NCBI GenBank assembly: GCA_020355945.1
Contig: CP070627.1
Span: forward strand, 7,346,687 to 7,369,666
Source: Candidatus Aminicenantota bacterium
GTDB lineage: Bacteria > Acidobacteriota > Aminicenantia > UBA2199
DNA: 22,980 nt
Direction: 5' to 3'
Shown here one piece after another: positions 3,002 through 21,000 of this stretch. The position numbers and the translations under genes were made by a program. Under the pieces are notes generated by a model that saw only the letters and a program-made list of their open reading frames with translations, was not told where the DNA came from and did not search any database. Positions within the stretch are counted from its first letter, which is position 1. Every line of letters starts with the position of its first letter.

Positions 3002-6000
3002 TCATTTCTTCAATAATTCTTCTATCACTTCTGCCAGGTGGGCAATGGTGGGTATTTCATAAAAACGGTCTATAGGAATTTCTACCTGGTATTCTTCCAT
3101 CAAATGTGAAATCATTTGCGTGCCCATCAAGGAATTGCCGTTCATGAAGAAAAAATTGTCATGGATGCCGGCTCGACTGACTCCAAGAAGTTTTTGCCAC
3201 CAATGGGCGATGGATTTCTCCAATTCACTGCGGGGGGGCTGGTAATTTTCGTCCGCTGTCTCGCGGGCTTCTATGTGGTCCAGGGATTCCAATTCGGCAT
3301 TAGCTCCTTGTGCCGATGCTCCAGGGAACACCGGTGCAATGCCGCTGCTTCCCGACATCAGGTCATTTATGTTGGCTTCCGGCCAATATCTCTTCCCCTC
3401 GAAGGGATATGCTGGCAGGGATACCCGATATCTCGGCTCTTCACCATGGAACCCCTGCCAATCAACCGGTTGACCATGATTCCACATCTGTCCCACTTTA
3501 TCTAATAGGAAACAATGGTCCGTGGTTTTCTCCTGCTGGTGTTTGACCGTATTGAGGATGATATGCCCGGGTTTTTTATCCGGGTGCGTGCGTACCATCA
3601 TACCCAGGATTCGACCCGCCCCGATTTCGATGAAAATGGCATTTTCCTCTTTCAACAACTCTTTGAGTCCATGGGAAAACCGGACCGTGGAACACAAATG
3701 CTCCCCCCAATACCCGGGATTAGTTGCTTGTTGTCCTGTTATCCATTGAGAAGTGACATTGGATATATACGGGATTTGGGGGGGCTTAAATCGGAAGCGG
3801 CTGACCTGGTTTTCAAATTCTTCTCGAATGGGTGCCATCAAAGGGGAATGGATAGCCCGGGACATATTTAAAGGCACACATATCACTCTTTTTTTCTTCA
3901 TTTCTTTTTCAAAGGCGGCAACCGCGGCTTTGGCACCGGATACAATGCAGGTGGGACCATTGACAATGGCTAAATATAAATCCTTGTTCAACAGCGTTTT
4001 CAGTTGATTTTCCGGGAGCGGCACACTGGTCATGGCGCCTTCAGGGGTTTGTTGGATTAATTGTCCCCTGATAATGACCAGTTTTAATGCATCTGGCAAA
4101 GACAACACCCCGGCAATGCAGGCGGCAATGTACTCGCCAAAACTGTAACCCATCATCGCCCGCGGGGTGATTCCCCAACGTATTAACAATTTTGCCAACG
4201 CATATTCAAAAGAAAATACAATGGGCTGGGTGAATCGTGTTTGATGGATTTGGGAAACAGGGGACCCTTCCTCACTCACCTCGCCCCTACCCGGATAAAG
4301 GATTTCTTTGATATCGTAATCCAGCATCGGTTTTAAAATCTCGAAACACCGGTCCATCTCTTCACGGAAAATGGGTTCGCTGCGGTAGAGGTCAATTCCC
4401 ATATTGACATATTGGGAACCTTGACCGCAAAACATAAATACCACGGGCGGATTTTCCTCTTTTACATAAGCAGTGGGAATCCGTTTCATATAAAGGGCCA
4501 ACCGGTCATAGTCAGTATCGATAGTGGAGCACAGCAGCATTCTCCGGTAAGGAAAGTGTCTCCGGCCCACCTGCAGGGTATAGGCCATGTCTGCCAGGTT
4601 AATGCCAGGATTTTTTTTGATAAAGCGCACTAAATTTTCAGTTTGTTTTTCAAGGGCTGTGGGGGTTTTAGCGGACAATAAAATTAACTGGTGTTCGCTG
4701 CCACCTGTAATCCCTCTTCCGTGGTCTATCTTCGGTGCTTCTTCAAGTACCACATGGGCATTGGTGCCGCCGATACCAAAGGAACTGACGCCGGCTCGCA
4801 GCGGATACCCATTATTTTCCCATTCTTTCAGCCTGGTAACAACATAAAAAGGGGTGTTTTTAAAATCAATTGCCGGATTGGGGGTGTTGAAATGAAGACC
4901 TGGTGGAATAAGACGGTGTTTGAGGGCCAGGACGGTTTTTATAAAACCGGCTAGTCCGGCGGCTGAATAGAGATGACCTAAATTGCTTTTTATGGTACCC
5001 AGGGCACAGGACGCCTTTTTATTTGTATTAAATACCTGTTTCAGGGCTTCGATTTCCACGGTGTCGCCTAAGGCGGTAGCGGTACCGTGGGCTTCGATGT
5101 AGGTAATACTCTCTGGTACCACCCCGGCCATTAATTGAGCGGCTTTTATCACCTCTGCCTGGCCATCGACACTGGGCGCGGTGTAACCTACTTTGCGAAA
5201 ACCATCATTATTAATGGCGGAACCTTTTATCACCGCATAAATATTATCCCTGGCCGCGGCAGCGTCTGCCAATCTTTTCAACACCACCACGCCAACCCCG
5301 TCTCCAAATACGGAACCGCTGGCTTCCTCATCAAAAGACCGGTTGTGACCATCCGCGGAAAGGATCATTCCCGGCTGGTACAGGTACCCCCGTTTGGGTG
5401 GGTAATTGATGGATACCCCCCCGGCCAAAGCGATTTCACAATCACCGTGCAGCAGACCCTGCACTGCCCAATGAACAGCCACCAGTGAAGTGGAACAAGC
5501 GGTTTGCAGGGAAACACTGGGCCCTTTTAAATTTAATTTATAAGAAATATGAGTACACATAAAATCTTTGTCTGCCAATTGGGCCACCATAAATGCGCTT
5601 AATCCCTGGTTCGCACCGCCAAAACACGTTAATGCTTCCCAATTGAGATTAGGGGAAGCCCCGGCATATAACCCGATGCGGCCATTATAGGAAATCGGAT
5701 TATACCCGGCATCTTCCAATGCATGCCAGATGCACTGTTGAAAGATACGCATCTGGGGGTCCATGATCTGTGCTTCCCTGGCTGTATATCCAAAAAAAGA
5801 AGCATCAAAATATTCCACTCCGTCGATAACCCCCTTGGCTTTTATATAATTGGGATTATTGAGGGTATCGGCGTCAATACCTTCTGCTTGTAACTCTTCG
5901 TCCGTAAAAAAACAGATGGATTCGATACCGTTTTTCAAATTTTCCCAAAATTCATCGATATGCCGGGCCCCGGGAAAAATCCCGGCCATGCCGATAACAG

Positions 6001-9000
6001 CCAGTTCCAGGCCGGTTTCCTTGTTTTGTAATGACGCCTCATCTTTGTTTATGATTTTTTTTATTACCTTTTTACCTCTATCCAGGGCCTCAGACATTTC
6101 TTTTTGTTTTTCCCTGGCGATTCCTTTTTCATCATTCTCCTGTTCCAGGTAACCCGCCAGGGAACGGATGGTGCTGTGTTGGAACAGTGCTACTACCGGG
6201 ATTTGCCGGTTAAATGTCTCGTTTAACCTGGTGTTGATGGTAAAGATATCCAATGATGTCCCCCCCAGGTCGAAGAAATTATCCTCCAGTCCGACCCGGT
6301 CTTTTTCCAGCACTTGTTTCCAGATATCGGCCACTATTTTTTCTTTATTGCTGGCTGGCACGGCATAGGATTGACCGGGACTGGTTTCAGGTGGAGGTAA
6401 CTGTTTCCGGTGGATTTTACCGGTGATAGTTAAGGGAATTTCTTCCACTTCCATGATATAAGGAGGTATCATATAACCGGGTAATTTCAGGGCCAGCCGC
6501 GCTTTCACCCGGGATATATCCAGGACCGCTCCAGGATTCATCACCACGTAAGCAGCCAGGTAATTCTGACCGGATTTTCGTCTTTCTTCCACTACTACAG
6601 TTTTTTTAATGTTCTCAATATTAGCCAGTTGGTTTTCGATTTCCCCCAATTCGATGCGATATCCCCTGACCTTTACCTGGCGGTCGATGCGGCCCAAGAA
6701 TTCGATATTCCCATCAGATAACCACCGGGCTAAATCACCGGTTTTGTACACAGCGTGGAACTTCTCTGCGGTTAATTCCGGGCGGTTCAAATAGCCGCGG
6801 GTGACGCCTGAACCGGTCACACACAATTCACCAGCCACTCCAATGGGTAATAGATTACCGTATTTATCTAAGATATAAACCTGGTAATTGGCGATGGGTT
6901 TACCGATGCACACATTAGAAGGGAGTTTCCCATCCTGGCGGCACCGGTAATAAGTCGCACAAACTGTCGATTCAGTGGGACCGTAGGTGTTGTATACCTG
7001 GCCTATTTCCATGAGATTTTCAATATATTCAGCCTTTAATTGGTCGCCCCCGCTAATCATAATTCGCAGGGAAACCAGGGGGTTATTTCCCTTACCGCTA
7101 AAACCTGCCGCTGCTTGATTCAATTCATTTAACAACTGGGGCGAACAGGTGATAAAAGTGACCCGATGCTTTTCAATAAAATCACACAGCCCGGTAATAT
7201 CCCTGGTCACCTCCCGGCCGGCAATTACCAATTTGCCCCCTCTCAACAGGATCGGGTAAAGTTCTTCGACAAAGGCATCGAATGCATAAGAGACCTGCTG
7301 AATTACCGTGTCTTCCGGCCGGAGATCAAATTCTTGTTCAAAGGCATGGATATAAGCGGCTAGATTGCGGTGTTCCACCAATACACCTTTGGGACGACCC
7401 GTTGTACCCGAAGTGTAGATGATGTAAGCCAGGTTACCCCCCTGTTGGGGGGAAATTCCAAATTCCAAATTACAAATTACAAACGAAGGGGAGCCCTTCG
7501 GGCGGGTTTTAAACGCCTGCGGCGAAGAAAAATCCGCGATTTCTTGACCGGTTAAAAGAATTTTGGCACTGCTGTCTTCCAGCATGAAATCAATGCGATC
7601 TTGCGGGTAATCCGGGTCAACCGGCATATAAGCACCCCCGGCTTTTAATATACCAAACAGACCCATAACCATTTCTAAAGACGGTTCCACCTTGATACCT
7701 ACAATAGTGTCGGGCTGAACGCCCTTTTCCCTTAGCAGCTTAGCCAATCGATCGGATATTTCATTCAATTCTTTGTAAGTAATAGCTATTAGATCCTGGC
7801 GCTTAGCTCTTAGGCTACTTTCGCCCAAGGCGTTTAAAACTTGCCCGAAGGGCGCCTCTTCCTTCTTACCTTCTACCCTTCTACCCTTCCACCCTTCTCC
7901 TTTCCCTACCAGGGCCACATGATCCGGTGTTCCGGCTGCCTGGTCTGTAAATAATTCATAGACGGTTTGCATACGGGGATATTCCCGGGATGTATTGTTA
8001 AACGATTCCAGCAACTGGTTTTTTTCTTCTTCATCCATCACCCGGATATCCAGTAACCGGATGCCGGGGTCTTTCACCACTTCACTGATTATGTTAATAA
8101 AATGACGGCCAAACTGTTCCATGGTCTCCCGCTTATACAACCGTGTACAATATTCCAACCTGAAATAGACCTGGTCTCCGGCTTCCATGGCTTCAATGGT
8201 AAAATCCACTTTGGACATATGCCGGGCCTCTTCATCGGATGAATGATAAGGGGAAAATTTTAAACCTTCTAATTGAAATTCTGTTTTTTCTATATTTTGT
8301 ACAATTAACATGGCATCAAATACGGGATTACGGCTAATCTCATTTTCTGCTCCCAGCTTTTTAATCAATTCTTTAAAGGGATAGTCCTGGTTATCATAGG
8401 CGTCCAATGTTGACTGTTTCACAACTTTTAAAAATTCGCCAAAAGTTTGCTGGCCGAAGGGATAATTTCGTAAGGCCAGGGTTTCAATGAGAAGACCGGG
8501 GACATGTTCCAGGTCCGGGTGGTGTCTTGAGGCAATAGTCGTGCCAATGATAATATCTTCCTGACCGGTATACCTGGCCAATAAAATATTATATACCACC
8601 AATAGCGCCATGAATAATGTTGTTCCTGTTTCTTTTAGCAGGTGATTGAGACCCCTGGTTACGGATTTTTCCAGGACAAGAGTAAACCAGTCACCTTCAA
8701 AATGTTGTACCAGGGGTCTGGGAAAATCAGTAGCTATATCGAGAACCGGCAGTTCACCGTGAAATCGTTCATCCCAGTATGTTTCTTGTTTCTTTAATTG
8801 GCCTGATGTAAGCCGGTTATACTGCCAGCGGGCAAAGTCCTTATATTGCAACTGCAGCGGATTTATATCCCTGTCCGCATAAAGCGCCATAAATCCTGTT
8901 AAAAAAATCGACATGGAGGTACCGTCGGAAATAATATGATGCATATCAAACACCAGGATATGCTTCTCTTCCGCTAATTTTATCAAACCCAATCGCAGCA

Positions 9001-12000
9001 GCGGCGGCCGCGATAAATCAAAAGGACGGATGAAAGAACTTATAAGAGCGGTTGCGGGTTGCGGGTTGCGGTCTGCGAGTTCTTCCCACCTGCACCTGTC
9101 ACCTTCACCTGCCACCTCCGAATCATAATATTCGATTTCAAATTCCAGGTGCTGGCGAATACGTTGAACCGGTTCCCCTGCTATCATTTCAAAGGATGTC
9201 CGTAAAATTTCATACTGCCGGATCAATCGTTTCAGTGCATTTTCAAATCGTTCTTTTTCAACAGGTCCTTCCACTTGATAGACAGCGGTTATATTGTAGG
9301 CCGTACTTTGGGGTGTTACTCGCTGGAGAATATAGAACCTGGCCTGGGCCGATGACAGTGGATAATACTCTTTTTTTTCCGCTGATTCTATGGGAGCGTA
9401 CTTTGTTTTTTCCGCTGCATGGATGAAAGCGGACATTCCCCTGATGGTGGGCCTCTTAAATACCTCTGCCAGGGACACATTCACCTGCAGCGCCTGCTGC
9501 ACCTTTAAGACCAGGGAGGTGGCTTTCAGTGAATGCCCCCCCAGTTGGAGAAAATCACTATCAATACCGATTAAATGTTTCTCTATCCCCAGTACGCCGG
9601 ACCATATCACTGCCAGTTTTTCTTCTATTTGGCTGCGGGGTGCAATATAAACGCCTGATTGTTCCTTTTCGATACCGGGTACAGGAAGTGCTTTCCTGTC
9701 TATTTTACCGCTGGATGTACAGGGAAGCGTTTCTAACGGGACAAAATAGGAAGGGATCATGTAACCGGGCAGGGTCTGTGCCAGGTATTCCTTGAATTCA
9801 GCAGGTTCCGGTAAGTTCTTTTTTCCTGTTTTTCCTTCCCCGCTACCCGTAAAATAAGCACATATATAATTATCTTTTTTTTCATCTGTCCGGCATATCA
9901 CGGCTGTTTCTTTTACCCGGGGATGCTTGACCAATTGCTTTTCTATTTCTTCCAGTTCGATCCTGAATCCCCTGATTTTTACCTGGCGGTCGATTCGGCC
10001 TAGAAATTCAATATTGCCGTCCGGCAGCCAGCAAGCCAGGTCCCCGGTTTTGTAGATTTTTTTAGAAATATAGGTCCTATAGGACGTATAGGACCTATAA
10101 TATTTATCGTGGTAATCCGGGTAATCCTTTAAATCATGGTCAAACTTTTCTGCGGTTAATCCCGGGCGATTGAGGTATCCCCGGGCTGTCCCGGTACCGG
10201 CAATGCACAGTTCCCCGGGAACATTCACCGGCTGCAATCTATCATGCCGGTCCAGGATGTACAATCTTACATTTTGCAATGGTTTACCAATTGGTATACT
10301 ATTACCACCGCTCCAATCGCTTAAGGAATAACCGCTGGCGTAAACAGACGCTTCAGTAGGTCCATACAAATTTTCCAACCGGAGGTGATGAATCGTGCGA
10401 TTCAAACCCTGGAAAGTTTTCACCGTTTCTGCTTGAAGCGCTTCTCCTGCCAGGAATATGTATTTCAAAGCGCCTAATTTGACGATATTTAAGGGAGTTA
10501 AATACTCCAGGAACACGTTAAACATAGAGGGAACAAAATTGATATGGGTGACCTGTAATCGCTGGACTGTTTCCAAAATCCGCTGCGGTTCTTTTTCGCC
10601 CCCCGGTGCCAACAGGGCCAACCGCCCGCCTTTTTCCCCATCTACGGTAATTCCCATAAACCACCCGAACAATTCCGTCACTGAAACATCAAAAACGCAG
10701 GAGGTTTTCATAAGGTAAACATCCCGCCGGGTAAAGGGATAACTGCGGTACAAACCGGATAAGGTATTCACTATGGAAGTATGGTTCACCATCACGCCTT
10801 TGGGCTGACCGGTGGAACCCGAAGTGTAGATAACGTAACATAGTTGAGTAGGGTGAGTAGGGTGAGTAGGGTGAATAAGGTGAGTAGGGAGTTTTTCGGC
10901 CAATTCACCGGGTTTAATCACCTGAATTCCGTTACTTACCTCACTCAACGCACTCCCCTCACTCAGCAAAACCTTTGCATTGCTGTCTGACAACATGTAA
11001 TCAATACGTTCCTGCGGGTAATCCGGGTCAATGGGCAAATAAGCGCCGCCTGCCTTTAATATGGCTAATATGCCGACTATCATCTCCAGGGACCGCTCCA
11101 CCAGGATACCCACAATGGTGTCCGGCCGAACCCCCTTTTCTATTAAAACGTGCGCCAATTGGTTAGACCTATCATTCAACTCATTGTAGGAGAGATGCAC
11201 CTCGGCAAAGGAGTTTACATCTGCCCGAAGGACATCAATTTGTTTGTAATTTGTATTTTGTAATTTTGGTCCTACCAGGGCTGTACGGTCCGGGGCTCGT
11301 TCCACCTGTTCCGCAAATAATCCATGAACCAGTTTATCTTCCGGGTAGGAAACATCGGTGCGGTTAAAATCAAAAACTATCTGCTGCTTCTCTTCCGCAG
11401 TTAGTATTTCGATCTCTTTTAGTGCCAGGGTAGGATTATCCGTCACCTGCCGGAGTATTTTTTTTATATGCCCACCCACCCGTTTAATCAAGGTCCTGTC
11501 ATAGATAAGGACATTATAACTGAGCTTCAGCAAAATACTTTCCCCGGGAATAATAATGATATTAAAATGATAATTGGTTTGTTCCAGCACCTTTATATCT
11601 TCTAACCGTAAATCCAGTGCCGTACCCTGTTCCTTAGTATTTTTTACCTGTTGATGAATAGGATAGTTCTCAAAAACCAGGATATGATCGATAAGATTTG
11701 ACTTCATTGGGGATTTTGCCTGGATATCTGCCAGTGGCAGATATTCATAGGCTTTACCGGCAGCGCTGCTTTGCTGCAAGGTCTTTATTAATTGGGAAAA
11801 GTCCTGGCCCGGATGACTTGTAACTCGAACCGGGACAGTATTGATAAAAAGACCTATCATCTGTTCTACCCCGTGCAGTTCCGGGGGCCGGCCCGAGACC
11901 ACCGCACCAAATACCACATCATTAATATCATTGTACCTTTGCAGCAATAGACCCCACACCCCCTGGATAACCGTATTTAACGTTACCCCATCCCGGCCGG

Positions 12001-15000
12001 CAAAATCCTTCACTGCTGCGGTACTTTTTTTATCGATTTCAAACGTATATTCTCCTGTTTTGTAAGCCCCCCCGATTTCCGTCTTTGCCGAGGGTAACCC
12101 GGGCAAAGCAGCCCGGTGCCGGTAACCTGCCAGGTATCTTTCCCAATAGTCAAGACCTGCTTCTTTATCTTGCTTTACCCACCATTCAATGTAATTTTTA
12201 TAGGAGATAACACCTGGTAACCGGATGACTTGACCCGCCGCCAAACTTTTGTAGATTTCAACCAGTTCATTATAGATAATGCCAAGGCACCAGCCATCCA
12301 TTAATATATGATGAAATCCCCATACCAGTCGATACCTGTTGCCACCGGTTTTAAATAAAGAAAGCCTCATCAAGACATCTTTACCCAGGTCAACCCCCCT
12401 CTCTTTTTCTTTTTGCAGCCATTCTTCCAGGTAATTGGCCGGTGCTGCCACGATGTCTTCATAATGAACCTCTTGCTGTCGATGACTGAGAACCACCTGG
12501 CAGGGTTCCGCCAACCCCTGGTAAGCAAATATTACCCGGAAAATGTCATACCTTTCGATCAGTTTATTAAAACTGCCTTCCAATAGAGATTTGTCCAGGG
12601 TGCCTTCCACCTGGAAAACAGTCTGAATAAAATATATATCGTAATGAGTCCGGCTTAGCCAATGATAAAACATGCCTTTTTGCATCGGTGCCAGTGGATA
12701 CACGGCTTCTATGGCCGGGTTTCCCGGGATATTGCTCTTGATGTTATCGAGAATTCCTGTAAATTCTTCTAACGAAAGTGCCAAATAAGACACGTCCATC
12801 ACATCACTGGGAGTTAATTCTCTTTCCTGTTTCCCGCTGCAGTGACGGATAATCTCCAGGAGGTTTCTTTTGAAACCGTCTGCCAACGAACGGATAGTGC
12901 TCTTATCATATTCATGCCGGTTGTAAGCAAAGGACATCGACAGTTTCCCACCCACGATCATGCTGTTAATGCTCAGCCTGTGGACCTGGTCCGCTTCCGG
13001 GCTGGTACCGGACCCGGTCCCCAGCCAGGAAAAAACAATAGAGCCTGCCCCCCCCTGCCCGGATGCACCCGGTGAGTCAAATTGACCCAGGTAATTAAAC
13101 AGCAATTCCGGCTCATGTTCAATAACACCTCTCTCTTCCCCAGGGGTTAAATATTTCAATATACCATAACCGATACCTTTATGGGGTATTCGCCTTAAGG
13201 TCTCCTTAACACTCTTAATGGCATGGGAAAGCTCATCACATTGGCTCATATCAAGCATAACCGGGTACAACGAGGTAAACCAACCCACGGTGCGACCGAT
13301 ATCCACATCCTCGATAATAGATTCCCGACCATGACCTTCCAAATGGATGAATATGCTGTCTATTCCACCCCACTCTTTTATAGCAATGCCCAGGGCTGTT
13401 AATAATATGTCGTTTATTTCTGTATTATAGGCCCGGTTCACTCGCTTCAACAAACTTTGAGTGTCCGCTTGACTTAATTCCAGTGTGACGAATTCCGTAT
13501 GCTTTTGTTTTTTTTTGGCTTTACTGATCTTCTTGCCTTCGGCGACCAGGGGGCGAGAGCATTGCGCAGAGCGCAGAGTGCACAGCGTTTGGTGCAAAGC
13601 ACGCAGCCTTTTTAGGCTCCCCTCGCCGAGGGGCCCCTGGACCCGCCGCTCTCCGCAAAAACTTTCTATAAATGATGGTTTGGAGGCATATTCGGTTATT
13701 TTTTCAGACCAATGCTTGAAAGAGTCTGTTTTCTGCGGGAATTTTATCGGCTCTTCGTTCTCTGCCTGTCTATAAGCAGTCTTAAAATCTTCTAATAATA
13801 TCCGCCACGATACACCATCAATTACCAGGTGATGAATGACGATTAATAAATGATCTCCTTCAGCAGTTCCAAATAAACCCAATTTGACTAATGGCCCCTT
13901 TTCCAGGTCTATACTTCCCTGGATTTTAGTTGCTCGCTCTTCAATTTCTCTTTGGATACTGCGCTTGTTTACGTTTTTAAAATCGAAAACTTCCAGGTCA
14001 AATAATTTTCCCTGTAATCCCCTGTTTTTTTGTATTATTACCTCTTCACCTTTTTCGCAGCTAAATTCAAATACCATACGAAGCACATCATGATGTTCTG
14101 TTAACTTTGTAAAGACCTTTTTTAAAATGTTTTCATCAAATCCTTCTGCTCGGTATAACATTATTGCCTGGTTAAAATGGTGCCGGTGGGTAATATAAGA
14201 CTGGAAAAACCAGTGCTGAATAGGAGTTAAAGGCACTTCTCCCTGCACCGCTCCCTGGGGAATCTGACGCGTAACCGCATTAACACTTCCGGCTAATTGT
14301 TTTATCACCGGCTTCGCAAAGATATCATTGATTTTCAAATCCAACCCGTATTTCCTTAACCTGGAGGTTACCTGTATGGCTTTGATGGAATCCCCCCCCA
14401 TTGCAAAAAAATTATCCGTGATGCCGATTCGCTCAACTCCCAATACCTCCTGCCATATCTCCACCAACCTCTTTGCCACTTCATCACCAGGAGGCTCATA
14501 ATCTCGGCCCACAACTTTTCCAGGCACAGGGAGCGATTTACGATCTACTTTGCCATTGGCGGTTAACGGGATTTTATCTAAAAAAATAAAATAAGCAGGA
14601 ATCATATAGGCTGGCAATTCTGCAGATAAATAGTCCTGCAGTTCCAATGAAGGAATTTCACCCTCACTGACTATATAAGCGCAAAGATAATTATCACCGG
14701 TTTCATCTTTTCTCGCCAGCACCACCGCATTTTTTATCCTTGGTTTTTTTAACAACCGGCTTTCGATTTCCCCGGGTTCGATCCTGAACCCCCTGATCTT
14801 CACCTGGAAATCAATTCGCCCCAGGAATTCGATATTACCATCCGGCAGCCAACAGGCCAAATCACCGGTTTTGTAATAGGACAAATAAGAAATATAAGAC
14901 CTATAGGACCCATAGGACTTATGATATCCATCATGGTAATCCTGGTAATCCCATAAATCATGGTCAAATTTCGCAGCCGTTAGTTCAGGTTGGTTCAGGT

Positions 15001-18000
15001 AACCAGGGGCTAAACCGACACCTGTGATACACAATTCTCCCGCCATTCCAATGGGCTGCAGCCGACCCCACCGGTCCAACACAAATAAACCGATGTTATC
15101 AATGGGTTTACCGATAGGGACTTTATCAAGATTCTCTCCCGCGGAACAATCAAAATACGATACATCCACCGTGGCTTCAGTGGGACCATACAAGTTGGCT
15201 AACCGGGTCCTGTTTGTTCTATAGAGCAGCTTATTAAACCTGTTTACCTGACTTACGCTTAATGCTTCCCCACTGGCAAATACTTGCCTGAGACCACACA
15301 ACCGCCGGGCTGCACCAGCAGCCTCTATATAATCCATAAACGCCCCTAACATGGAAGGCACAAAATGCATCACCGAAACCCTGCACAGTTCAATGGCTTC
15401 CACTATTAACCCCGGGTCTTTTTCACCTCCGGGAACAAGAAGACATAACCCGGCTCCGGCAATTCCCCACCAAAACAACTCCCATACCGATACATCAAAG
15501 GTAAAGGGAGTTTTCTGTAATATCACGTCTTCCCCTGTTAACGGATACTGCTTCTGCATCCAAACCAACCGGTTCACCACTGACACATGCCGGATCAGGG
15601 TTCCTTTAGGCTTTCCCGTAGAACCCGAAGTGTAAATGACGTAGGCCAGTTGCGAGTTGCAAGCTGTGGGTTGCGGGTTGAAAAACACGGCTGTAGTTGT
15701 TGTTGCTTCATTCATTGACAATTGACAATTGACAATTGACAATTCTTCAAATTTTTCTTTTAGCCCGGGATCTGTCAGCAGAACTTTGGCTTTGCTGTCC
15801 GCCAGCATGTATTTGATGCCTTCTTCCGGGTATTCCGGCGCAATAGGCAAATAAGCACCACCAGACTTTAATATGCCTAATATCCCAAAAATCATCTCAA
15901 CAGACCGCGCCACCATTATTCCCACAATGGCATCGCATTCAACTCCTTTGTCGCACAATATCCGGGCCAATTGATCGGACCGTTCATTCAATTCCCGGTA
16001 AGTAATAAAAATATTCTTGCCGAAGGCATTTGAAACTTGCCCTACCAGGGCTATCCGGTCCGGGGTTCGTTCCACCTGTTCCCGAAACAATTGATGAACC
16101 GGTTTATCTACCGGAAAAGAAACACCTTTACCATTAAAAGAAAAAAGAATTTGCTGTTTCTCTTCTGCCGTCAGTATCCCGAGCTTTTTTAATTGTATCC
16201 CGGGATTAACCGCCACTTGCCGCAGGATTTCCCTCATATGTATCCCCACGCGATTAATAAAAGCCCTGTCATAAATAAGGGAATTATAACTCAACTTCAC
16301 CCGGATAACTTCACCGGGAAGAATCGTTATATAAAAGTCATAATTGGTTTGTTCAAATACGGTTATGTCCTGTACACGCCAGTTTAATAAGGCCCCTGGT
16401 TCACCGCCAACCTGCCGGCCCGGTGTTTGCTTTACCTGCTGATGCACCGGGTAATTCTCAAAAACCAGGATATGATCGATGAGATTCCCCCGTAATTCCG
16501 ACTGTGCCTGGATATCCGCCAATGGCAGGTATTCATAACGTCTGCCCGTGGTGCTGTCCTGCTGCAAAATCATCACCAATTGAGAAAACGTTTGTCCCTC
16601 ATGACTAATAACTCGAACCGGTATGGTATTGATAAAAAGGCCTACCATTTGCTCTATACCGGGCAGTTCCGGCGGACGACCCGATACCACCGCTCCAAAC
16701 ACAACATCGCTGCTATTATTGTACTTCTGCAGCAATAAACCCCATAATCCCTGGAATACCGTACTTACCGTTATCCGGTTCTTACTGGAAAAATCCACCA
16801 GTGCCAATGCCTCTTGTTCATCTACAGCAAACTGGCACTCTTCCAATTTGTAAACCCCTTCACCTGCCCCGCCGGCCTTTGATTTGGGCAAACCCGCCTG
16901 CTGCCGGTAACCGGACAGGTATTTTTCCCAATAATCAACAGCCGCCTCCTTATCCTGCTTCAACCACCACTTAATATAACTTCTATAAGGAGTAACCTCT
17001 TTTAAAGGGAAAGCTTTTCCCGCCGCCAAACTCTTGTAGATTTCCGCCAGCTCATTATAGATAATGCCAAGGCACCAACCATCCATTAATATATGATGAA
17101 ACCCCCATACCAGTTGATATTGGTTCTCACCGGTTTTAAATAAAGAAAGCCTCATCATCACATCTCTACCCAGATCAAATCCTCTCTCTTTTTCTCTTTG
17201 ACACCATTCTTCCACATAATGCGCCTGCTCTTTTCCCGGCAGGTGAAGGATATCTTTATAATGAACCTTCACCCGGCGATGATTAAGAACAGCCTGCAAA
17301 GGCTCCTCTACACCCTGGTAAATAAATATGGTCCGAAAAATATCATATCTTTGGATAAGATTATTTAAACCGGCTTCCAATAAAGATTTGTCCAGGCCGC
17401 CTTCCAACTGGAATAAGGTTTGAATAAAATACATATCGTAATGAGTCCGGGTTAGCCAATGATATAATATGCCCTTTTGCATCGGTCCCAGGGGATACAT
17501 GGCTTCTATTGACGGGTTTCCCGGGATATTGTTCTTGATGTAATCGAGAATTACTGTAAATTCTTCTAACGAGAGAGTCGAATAAGACACGTCCATCACA
17601 TCACTGGGGGTTAATTCTCTTTCCTGTTTCCGGGTGCAGTGGCGGATAATGTCCAGGAGGTTTCTCTCGAAACCCTTTGCCAACGAACGGATGGTGCTCT
17701 TATCATATTCATGCCGGTTGTAAGTAAATGACAGCGACAGTTTTCCCTCCACCACCATACCGGTAACAATCAAGGTATGAAACTGGTCCAATTCCGGGCT
17801 GAAACTCCGGCCCTTACTTAACGAGGAAAATTGAAACAGCGATTTTTCATCTCCCTTTGCCGGTTTATAGGGACTCCCCGCCAGGGAGTCGAATTGGCCG
17901 AGATAATTAAAACTGATCTCCGGCTCCTCCTCGAAAAAATCTCCCTCTCTCTCTTCCCGAAGGGTTAAATATCTCCAAATACCATACCCGATACCTTTAT

Positions 18001-21000
18001 GGGGTATACGCCTCAATGTCTCTTTCACACGCTTAATGGCATAAGAAAGATCATCACATTGACTCATATCCAGGATAACCGGGTACTGGGCAGTAAACCA
18101 ACCCACTGTACGACTGATATCAAGGTCCGGGATGATGGATTCCCGGCCGTGACCTTCCAAATTAATCATTACCTCATCTATCCCGGCCCACTCTTTTACA
18201 GTTTTACCCAGGGCAGTTAATAATATGTCGTTTATTTCTGTATTATAAGCCTGGTTCACCCGCTTCAACAGGGTCCGGGTGTCGGTTTCACTTAAATTTA
18301 AAGTAACCGCTTCGGTGTATTTTTGTTTTCTCTTATCTTTATTGATTTTTCTATCCAGGGGGGGCGCTTTTTGAAAAAACTGCCCCCCCCTTAATAGGCC
18401 GGGGCTGCCAGCCCCCCCCCCGCAAAAACTTTTGATTAATGCTTGTTTCCGGGCATACTCTGTTAAATTCCGGGACCAACGCTGAAAAGAGTCTGTTTTG
18501 TCCGGGAATCTTATTGGTTCTCCTTTCTGCACCTGGTTGAAAGCGGTATTCAAATCTTCTAATAATATTCGCCATGATACACCATCGATTACCAGGTGAT
18601 GAATGACAATTAATAGATGATCACCCCGGACAGTCTTAAATAAACCCAATTTAACCAATGGTCCCCTGGTTAAATCCACCCCGGCCTGGATGACATTGGC
18701 TTCTTTTTCAATTGACTGTTTAATATATGTATCATCGTCATTTTCAAAATCGAAAACAGCAAGATCAAATGATTGTCCCTCTATTCCTCTATTTCGCTGG
18801 ATCACGTCGCCTGTTTCCTGGTCCAATTCATAGACCATTCGTAAGGCATCATGGTGTTCGGTTAATTTGGTAAAGACCTGTTTTAAAATGTCTTGATCAA
18901 TTCCCCCGGGCCGGTACAACATCACCGCCTGGTTAAAATGGTGCCCGTCAGTAAAATTCTTAGCAAAAAACCATCGCTGGATAGGGGTTAAAGGGACCTC
19001 CCCCTTTACAACTTCCTGGGGAATTTGCCCTGTCACCGGGGTAACACATCCGGCCAGTTGTTTGATAGTTGGTTGGCTAAATAAATCATTGATCTTTAAA
19101 TTCAACCCCCTGGTTTTTAACCGGGACACCACTTGCATGGCTTTGATAGAATCGCCGCCCATTTGAAAAAAGTTATCCATGATGCCTACTCGTTCGATAC
19201 CCAGGACATCTTGCCATACTTCCACCAATCGCTTTTCCACCTCATCCCGCGGAGCCGCATAATCCGGGCCTGCTGTCAGACCGGGTTGGGGGAGTGCTTT
19301 GCTGTCCACCTTACCGGTGGAAGTCAGGGGTATTTTGTCCAGGAAAACAAAACAGGAAGGAATCATATAATCCGGGACCTGCTTTGATAAATACTCCTTC
19401 AATTCAAGATCCTGGATATTGCTGGCGCTGACAATATAAGCGCAGAGATATTTATTACCCCGCTCATCCTCTCTTGCCGCCACTACGGCATTTTTTATCC
19501 CGGTTTTGTTTAACAGTCGGTTCTCGATTTCTCCCGGCTCGATCCTGAACCCCCTGATCTTCACCTGGAAATCAATACGGCCCAGGAACTCGATATTTTT
19601 ATCCGGCAGCCAACGTGCTAAGTCACCGGTTTTGTAGATTTTTTTAGAAATATAGGACGTATAGGACCTATAGGACCTATGATAATTATCGTGGTAATCC
19701 TGATAATCCTTTAAATCATGGTCAAATTTTTCACAAGTTAATTCCGGTCTGTTTAAATATCCCCGTGCCACGCCGGCTCCTCCGATGCCCATTTCTCCGG
19801 CAGTGCCAATAGGCTGCAGTTGTTGTTGGCTGTCCAGGATGTAAATCATAGTATTCCATATCGGAGCACCGATTTTTATTTGATTATCTTTTTCCTGGTG
19901 TTGGTACAGGGTTGAGGTCACTGCGGCTTCGGTGACCCCGTATTCATGAACCACCTCGATTCCTGGATTTTTTTGCCTGGTGGCATCCAGTAAAGTAAGA
20001 GGTAAACGGTCACCCCCAAGAGTAACCACTTTTAACCATACCGCCTCTGTTTTGCTTAATCCTTCGATGATAGCCTGGTAAAGAGGCGGCGTACAAAAGA
20101 TATGGGTCACATGATTCCCGGTGATCAGAGATTTAATAACTCCCGGGTCCTTTCTCTCTTCCTGGCCTGTTAAAATCACACGGGCACCGGAAATAACCGG
20201 GGTAAAAAAGTCCGTGACAAACCCGTCAAAAGAATACGAAAACAACAACAAAGTGGTAACAGCCGGGTTCATTTTATAAATCTCTTTGCGGCACAACAGG
20301 ATATTCACTGCATTGCCGTGCTCTACCAACACTCCTTTGGGTTTGCCGGTGGACCCGGAAGTGTAGATGACGTAAGCCAGGCTGGAAGGGAGGGAAGCTG
20401 GGAAGCTGGGAAGCTGGGAAGTTGGGAAGTCAGGATGGAGTCCTTCGGACAATAAAATTTTTGTTCCGCTGTCTTTTAACATGTAATTAATGCGTTCTTC
20501 CGGGTAGTCCGGGTCAATGGGCAAATAGGCGCCGCCAGCCTTTAATATGGCTATAGTGCCGATGATCATTTCCACGGACCGCTCCACCATGATAGCCGCC
20601 ACAGTGTCGGGTTGAACACCTTTTTGCCTCAATACATGCGCCAATTGATCCGATTTTTGGTTTAATTCACTATATGAAATATGGGTCGTATAGGTCATAT
20701 AGATCCTATTTTTTGTCTGCGATGGTCCGACAACGGCGATATTATCCGGGGTTTGTTCCGCTTGTTCGGCAAATAAACCGGGGATAGTCTGATTACCGGC
20801 ATAGTCCCTGGCTGTATTATTCAGATCATGTAATAACTGTCTCTTTTCCTTTTCCGGTATAATTTCGTCTTTATCTAGAATCCCGTGGGGATGATAAATA
20901 AACTTTTCTAGCACTTCATTAAAGAAAGTATACAGTTTTTTTGCGTCTCCCTGGCTGATGAAGGCGGTTGAAAAATGAATGGTAAAAGTCAGTTGGCTGC

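Follow-up and report, generated by a model that had tools for sequence, protein, structure and literature searches.

The stretch of DNA analysed here, hereafter the window, comprises 22,980 nucleotides of contig CP070627.1 from a Candidatus Aminicenantota bacterium (positions 7,346,687 to 7,369,666) and carries on its minus strand a stop-free frame of 6,658 residues (3002..22978), open at its 5' end in the window, that encodes a nonribosomal peptide synthetase-polyketide synthase (NRPS-PKS). Pfam recognizes in this frame Condensation (C), AMP-binding, AMP-binding_C and PP-binding domains, followed by ketoacyl-synthase (KS) and acyltransferase (AT) domains, and the presence of the first four places the protein among the NRPSs with standard adenylation (A) domains. 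Within the genome collection, the window is closest to two Candidatus Aminicenantes drafts (67% and 64% in the best segment), followed by one Acidobacteriota draft (57%). The subject of this report is the short repeats that occupy three loops of these A domains, namely loop I after the first A-domain strand (ALVG), loop II before motif A3 and loop III between motifs A6 and A7; the names A3, A6, A7 and P-loop are those which we take these motifs to bear.

Arrays were called with Tandem Repeats Finder (TRF) at score cut-offs of 30, 40 or 50 where stated. In the window they have 1.9-5 copies and are mostly imperfect, and the units that the preliminary description had named in A-domain loops are indeed present. 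On the minus strand, to which all features given here belong, module 2 carries an insert in loop I (20681..20725), a GGGAAGCT array before A3 in loop II (20381..20446; array at 20392-20429) and a TATAGGACC array between A6 and A7 in loop III (19637..19723; array at 19651-19680). Module 3 has an insert in loop I (16007..16039), two arrays before A3 in loop II (15653..15772), of ATTGACA (15714-15744) and AGTTGCG (15648-15680), and one array in loop III (14879..14965; array at 14885-14922). Module 4 combines an AAATTAC-like repeat in loop I (11195..11269) with a TGAGTAGGG array before A3 in loop II (10847..10960; array at 10845-10889) and a TATAGGACC array in loop III (10055..10141; array at 10069-10099). 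In module 5, a CCTTCTAC array lies in loop I (7784..7903) and an AAATTAC/AAATTCC array before A3 in loop II (7436..7549; AAATTAC at 7453-7483), and loop III is an 'empty' site of three residues (HAV; 6749..6757), so that arrays between A6 and A7 occur, as had been stated, in three of the four complete modules. The partial module 1 bears in loop III a palindromic element in frame (KKFLQGGPGGAVFSKSAPPGRRRQKI; 22901..22978).

The repeats of successive modules had been described as unrelated. This holds for the site before A3, to which we confine the term because the A6-A7 inserts of modules 2, 3 and 4 have nearly the same sequence; the palindromic insert of module 1 is unlike them. The repeat units are also not private to a single module, since loop II of module 5 resembles, on the opposite strand, both loop I of the same module (45 bp, 84%) and loop I of module 4 (59 bp, 78%).

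At a TRF score of at least 40, the window gene contains 10 arrays, 7 of them within A-domain loops that account for 6.7% of the gene when 12-base margins are allowed (binomial P 6e-7), and at a score of at least 30 the loops hold 14 of 27. Thirty codon shuffles of the gene yielded a mean of 0.57 arrays and a maximum of 4 (score at least 40), and the arrays thus exceed what random low-complexity sequence would provide.

The same concentration was found beyond the window in stretches with NRPS genes from six drafts of the class (G001, G002, G003, G252, G254 and G255), which together with the window form the clade sample. Arrays were mapped on a hidden Markov model (HMM) built from the window's four full A domains, and frames of at least 250 residues were taken from stop to stop, so that broken genes are absent from the counts. 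Loop borders were set on a first set (window, G001, G002 and G003) and then kept, with G255 being fetched afterwards. In the first set, 79 NRPS frames contained 227 merged arrays, 178 in A domains and 49 outside, and 171 of the 178 fell in the three loops (28, 80 and 63 in loops I, II and III) with 7 elsewhere. G255, new to the test, gave 56 loop arrays vs. 1 in the rest of its A domains, and in the full clade set, with 222 A-domain matches of which 159 are close to full length, 230 arrays fall in the loops and 7 elsewhere in the domain. By comparison, the eight plasmid NRPS loci used as controls (Paenibacillus, twice, Mycetohabitans, Gloeocapsa, Bradyrhizobium, Streptomyces, Leptolyngbya and Methylocystis) supplied 53 A-domain matches, which carried no loop arrays and 3 core arrays. 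At a score of at least 50, array density was 0.206/kb in NRPS frames vs. 0.035/kb in 142 other frames, and 0.000-0.008/kb in five codon shuffles of the NRPS frames.

NRPSs this close to that of the window (E up to 1e-145) were found in 6 of 142 genomes of the class. The suggestion that the arrays are a lineage-wide habit is borne out for a subgroup of Aminicenantes and not for the whole lineage, as G001, G003 and G255 are array-rich and G002 (6 loop arrays in 25 matches), G252 (2 in 11) and G254 (0 in 7) array-poor. G001 and G003, the genomes behind loci L001 and L002, are drafts of 10.4 and 6.9 Mb with at least 158 and at least 155 A-domain matches, respectively (150 first-look candidates scored in each).

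Extra sequence after ALVG, also noted earlier, is evident from loop I lengths of 13, 17, 27 and 42 residues in the four full A domains of the window (HMM borders). The loop I median is 6 residues in seven of the control plasmids and in other Acidobacteriota, 7 in the eighth plasmid and 11-22 in the clade groups; that of loop III is 12-20 in plasmids, 16 in other Acidobacteriota and 19-32 in the clade groups. Loop II has a median of 41-50 residues in every group with full domains, controls included. The proposal that the repeats alter loop length is therefore correct for loops I and III, whereas loop II is of normal length, its sequence being replaced rather than extended. Among the best 120 of 870 scored database relatives, the median loop I measured 6 or 6.5 residues in 79 and at least 10 in 37, the window's own protein included. 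When the loops of 30 of these 120 were inspected by eye, repeat peptides of the same kinds were seen in most; the Nocardia protein P0066 clearly departs from this, and no repeat peptides are visible in P0005.

In alignments to solved A domains (the printed ones all being LgrA), loops I and III lie at gaps and loop II in the variable stretch before the P-loop. The A-domain fold is indicated by phmmer matches to LgrA and PheA chains and by Foldseek matches to 6p1j and 1amu, the latter obtained from a weak model. The AlphaFold model is poor (mean predicted local distance difference test score, pLDDT, of 57). Loop I appears in it as a turn flanked by two strands, and loops II and III are modelled as coil (block pLDDT 23-34), which is weak evidence on the loops because the whole stretch 351-450 is below pLDDT 50. 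For this reason the placement of the loops is based on the sequence alignment to solved A domains together with the predicted coil. The loops are presumed to be surface-exposed.

Further repeat-bearing sites exist beyond the A domains, namely in the C, AT and KS-AT regions and, as far as the window is concerned, also in E-type domains. Of 64 clade arrays outside A-domain matches, a script assigned 23 to a C-domain loop (before FIRPFDLS), 5 to an AT loop (after ILYP) and 3 to a linker (after TNAHVVLEE); reading the other 33 by eye added 5 to the C-domain loop and 1 to a cut-off A loop and left 27 scattered. In the window, the C-domain loop of module 5 (before ISSFIRPFDLS) carries GGTTGCG and CCACCTG arrays (9035..9118), and the AT-domain loop, array-bearing in relatives, has no array of score 30 or more (4241..4291). 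The domains between modules, which Pfam names Condensation and we take to be of E type, bear palindrome-like inserts after FCGG/FCGE, both recognized by eye: the loop between modules 2 and 3 (18323..18421) contains an imperfect version of the palindromic element, and that between modules 3 and 4 (13505..13654) a CCAGGGG...CCCCTGG-bounded insert.

Considering these data together, we think it very probable that repeats dispersed over the genome survive in megasynthase genes chiefly at loops seemingly tolerant of any peptide. The view of the A-domain loops as safe harbours for repeats, put forward in the preliminary description, is well supported by the outcome of the two checks proposed with it, namely the loop enrichment in the clade and the unrelated loops of orthologues described below. 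A subgroup of Aminicenantes would carry a pool of short dispersed DNA repeats, consisting of tandem units of 7-9 nt and a palindrome whose core measures about 35 bp, which are mostly intergenic and may also land or grow in giant NRPS and PKS genes. Selection, most plausibly purifying selection on the fold, would purge them wherever fold or frame would break, and the survivors would be in-frame, stop-free pieces at a few surface loops, namely A-domain loops I-III, the C-domain loop, the AT loop, the KS-AT linker and, in the window, the E-type domain loops. The encoded peptide would then be arbitrary, with relatedness lying in the DNA and not in the protein.

The most serious alternative is growth in place, by which loops of low constraint would acquire repeats by replication slippage from chance sequence, without a mobile or dispersed source. 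The units are mostly short and tandem, neighbouring modules differ in unit, and 252 loop arrays (other Acidobacteriota included) comprise 112 distinct units, all of which would fit such an origin. Yet a few units fill many of these loops (AATGATG 32 arrays, AGCTATG 27), identical peptides recur at the same loop across the modules of one genome (by eye), and AATGATG stands at many places outside genes. Matches to (AATGATG)3 with at most one mismatch number 650 in G255, 173 in G003, 70 in G001, 7 in G002, 6 in G252 and 0 in G254 (here as in all genome-wide pattern counts, overlapping matches within one array are included), compared with 8 matches, in 3 genomes, among the other 136 genomes of the class and 10 matches of the reversed pattern across all 142. 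The unit AATTCCAAATTACAAATTCC has 65 matches in G001, 1 in G002 and none in four others, and none when reversed. In stretches around listed match places, 25 AATGATG arrays were sampled, with 19 situated outside any frame of at least 200 residues, 5 in A loops II or III and 1 in another frame; among 24 arrays of AATTCCAAATTACAAATTCC (about 20 distinct places, as loci overlap), 14 are outside frames of that size, and of the rest 5 occupy loop I, 3 belong to NRPS sequence beyond the A domains and 2 to other frames. The two units searched are therefore dispersed genome-wide.

Growth in place is also at odds with non-tandem palindromes being common to loops and non-coding DNA, and with composite stretches that match non-coding DNA, for example over 82 bp at 80% to L079. 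In a non-coding stretch of G001 (L074, near 4170-4300), two kinds of window-loop repeat stand side by side, matching the window's module 4 loop I (31 bp at 94%) and module 2 loop III (42 bp at 86%), and a repeat kind seen in G001 loop I can be made out there by eye as well. Array densities outside and inside gene calls, from small samples, were 2.10 and 0.15 per kb in G001 control contigs, 1.09 and 0.20 in G002, 0.86 and 0.41 in G255 and 0.56 and 0.34 in G001 NRPS stretches. Taken together, we regard growth in place as a rather unlikely general source of the loop repeats.

Several observations nonetheless weigh against a dispersed pool that is filtered by selection. No insertion between near-identical strains was caught, so that any single array may have grown in place, and because frames were selected as open, broken copies would be missed. 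G003 has no intergenic excess of arrays (0.31/kb outside vs. 0.32/kb inside gene calls), and loop units coincide with intergenic units in 49 of 252 arrays, vs. 17 +/- 15 in the shuffled-unit control, with the intergenic sample being small. The NRPSs of other Acidobacteriota (85 A domains) have 22 loop and 15 core arrays; G002, G252 and G254 possess the same NRPS type with few arrays; and the usual length of loop II is unexpected under pure insertion. Y1 transposase (PF01797), one possible mover of the repeats in the way that RAYT transposases move REP elements, is present in G001, G002 and G252 and was not found in the drafts G003, G254 and G255, an inconsistent presence that does not favour it as the driver of the repeats.

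The reading frame is irrelevant to the loop repeats. Counterparts of loop DNA are found in other loops, be it in frame with them, in either of the two other frames or on the opposite strand, as well as in DNA free of long frames; same-frame matches are the most frequent, as expected from copying between modules, and part of the opposite-strand matches arise from partly palindromic units. Of the 230 loop arrays, 76 have a unit length divisible by three (0.33, the chance level), vs. 23 of 31 arrays in other genes. The palindromic element behaves likewise. In loop III of module 1 of the window it forms the hairpin CCAGGGGGGGC-AGTTTTTTCAAAAAGCG-CCCCCCCTGG, with a core of 30-38 bp in such copies and a z-score of -5.0 for the folded strand (83 nt folded). 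A hairpin scan, the listing of which also contains unlike hairpins, gave 18 loop III copies, 6 in each of the three phases, translated according to phase as, for example, PGGAVFSKSAPPG, SRGAILQKSPPG or VQGGSFLEKSPPG. Copies occur in genes and between genes, and a half-element pattern has 378 matches in G001, 137 in G002, 146 in G003, 85 in G255, 60 in G254 and 9 in G252, overlaps counted, vs. 0 in three genomes of the class without a close NRPS match and 0-3 per genome for the reversed pattern. That repeats stand in any reading frame within a few loops suggests that almost any sequence is acceptable to the enzymes at these places.

The G run and the C run of the palindrome are of equal length in 46 of 48 distinct copies (3/3 to 7/7), against 12.9 expected by shuffling, and the leading G/A run is matched too, with all three runs equal in 34 of 42 copies. 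The 48 copies, that of the window included, look as if one arm had been copied from the other.

Units that are not a multiple of three (154 of the 230 loop arrays) could also be read as contingency loci, with the gain or loss of one 7- or 8-nt unit shifting the frame and rendering the megasynthases phase-variable. The low copy number and imperfection of the window arrays speak against this, as does their position mid-gene and not near the start, and several such arrays per gene would leave the gene mostly off. The openness of the fetched frames says little on the matter, since frames were chosen as open, and on the former grounds we judge phase variation to be very improbable.

Comparably improbable, in our opinion, is that the loops are functional linkers or docking patches whose peptide composition is selected, even though loops I and III are longer than in controls and the A6-A7 inserts of modules 2-4 are alike. 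The A domain of module 5 in the window is 63% and 61% identical to its counterparts in L001 and L003, yet none of loops I, II and III is related between the three domains; where the window has three residues in loop III, L001 has a long insert. Such turnover of loops between orthologues and the translation of one DNA element into three different peptides at the same site are difficult to reconcile with a selected composition, and the alike inserts would also be compatible with copying between modules.

As for an artefact of random low-complexity sequence or faulty assembly, it could be argued that the relatives come from metagenome assemblies at draft stage and that sequencing errors are frequent in long G runs, but the shuffling result in the window, the repetition of the pattern in separate assemblies and the listing of the window's own protein on a contig of 9,131,798 bases make it exceedingly improbable.

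It is conceivable that the repeat-filled loops are more than tolerated and divide each A domain into blocks, with homologous exchange between modules running from loop to loop and unlike repeats stopping exchange or like repeats starting it. Three discordant module pairs were read through; in two, near-identical DNA extends from about loop I to about loop II, and in the third near-identity spans both loops and stops beyond A3. Tract ends were located by a two-state scan of pairs from the same genome, and in the repeat-rich clade 102 of 242 lay within 10 columns of a loop (null 35.2, standard deviation 5.6), compared with 2 of 58 in other Acidobacteriota (null 7.7) and 8 of 142 in plasmid controls (null 16.7). 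With a clade-only background the count was 37 of 106 (null 15.6), and when no domain was used more than once it was 15 of 50 (null 7.3, P 0.0055). Misalignment or faster change beside loops could add to this excess and 35 of the 50 ends lie elsewhere, and for these reasons loop-bounded recombination is kept as a lead, one that we find doubtful. If true, it would mean that genome repeats contribute to the reshuffling of A-domain segments and, through it, of peptide chemistry. A fixed-window tract analysis was set aside as confounded by invariant motifs, and in segment correlations the pocket segment varied independently of the rest, as is already known.

The nearest known cases are palindromic elements in Rickettsia genes and the heptanucleotide repeats of Nostoc and Xanthomonas, neither of which matches in target. 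Rickettsia palindromic elements are described as palindromic repeats of about 150 bp found between genes and in frame within protein-coding genes, these being unrelated metabolic genes (PMC10969869). The element described here shares the palindromic fold and the occurrence both in and between genes, but its core is 30-38 bp, its loop copies lie in one enzyme class, and it stands beside many tandem-unit families. The repeats of Nostoc, Calothrix and Xanthomonas are described as 7-nt tandem units, under-represented in coding DNA and, in Nostoc and Xanthomonas, genome-wide and mostly outside genes (PMC4692102). As judged from the two units searched, the arrays described here resemble such dispersed heptanucleotide repeats of the short tandemly repeated repetitive (STRR) type, sharing the 7-nt tandem units and a dispersal like that in Nostoc and Xanthomonas. 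They differ in being enriched at defined megasynthase loops, so that NRPS frames are not depleted in them (densities above), and in that the two units vary strongly in number between genomes.

NRPS modules are known to exchange A-core segments, the boundaries being reported as diverse or between A2 and A5/A6, and the portions of these papers at hand mention no repeats there (PMC9205934, PMC8097286); the tract ends found here, by contrast, cluster at repeat-filled loops. The lengths of A-motif loops are known to vary and to relate to substrate and phylum, with no repeat insertion described in the sections available (PMC10212144). Among the titles listed in a literature search, none indicated a report of repeats in NRPS loops. 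The distribution of the repeats amounts to a natural, evolution-made map of NRPS and PKS sites seemingly open to almost any peptide, and such sites are needed in engineering for the insertion of tags or the joining of parts. Mostly non-coding repeats have entered coding DNA in any frame, at defined loops, more than 200 times in the sampled stretches, which makes the turnover of such insertions, and selection on them, measurable. A testable idea on how module segments are exchanged is added.

At the upstream edge of the window, the database entry for the NRPS-PKS frame is a protein of 6626 residues, shorter than the frame at 22880-22978, and by the length difference its start would be a GTG inside motif A7. 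Just upstream of the window the frame may be interrupted, either genuinely or through an error. Downstream of it, positions 746-2971 and 109-732 encode a CBM9/DUF5916 protein and a DUF1579 protein, respectively, and tandem CCAAAATTG/CCAAAATCCG repeats follow the last gene at 61-96.

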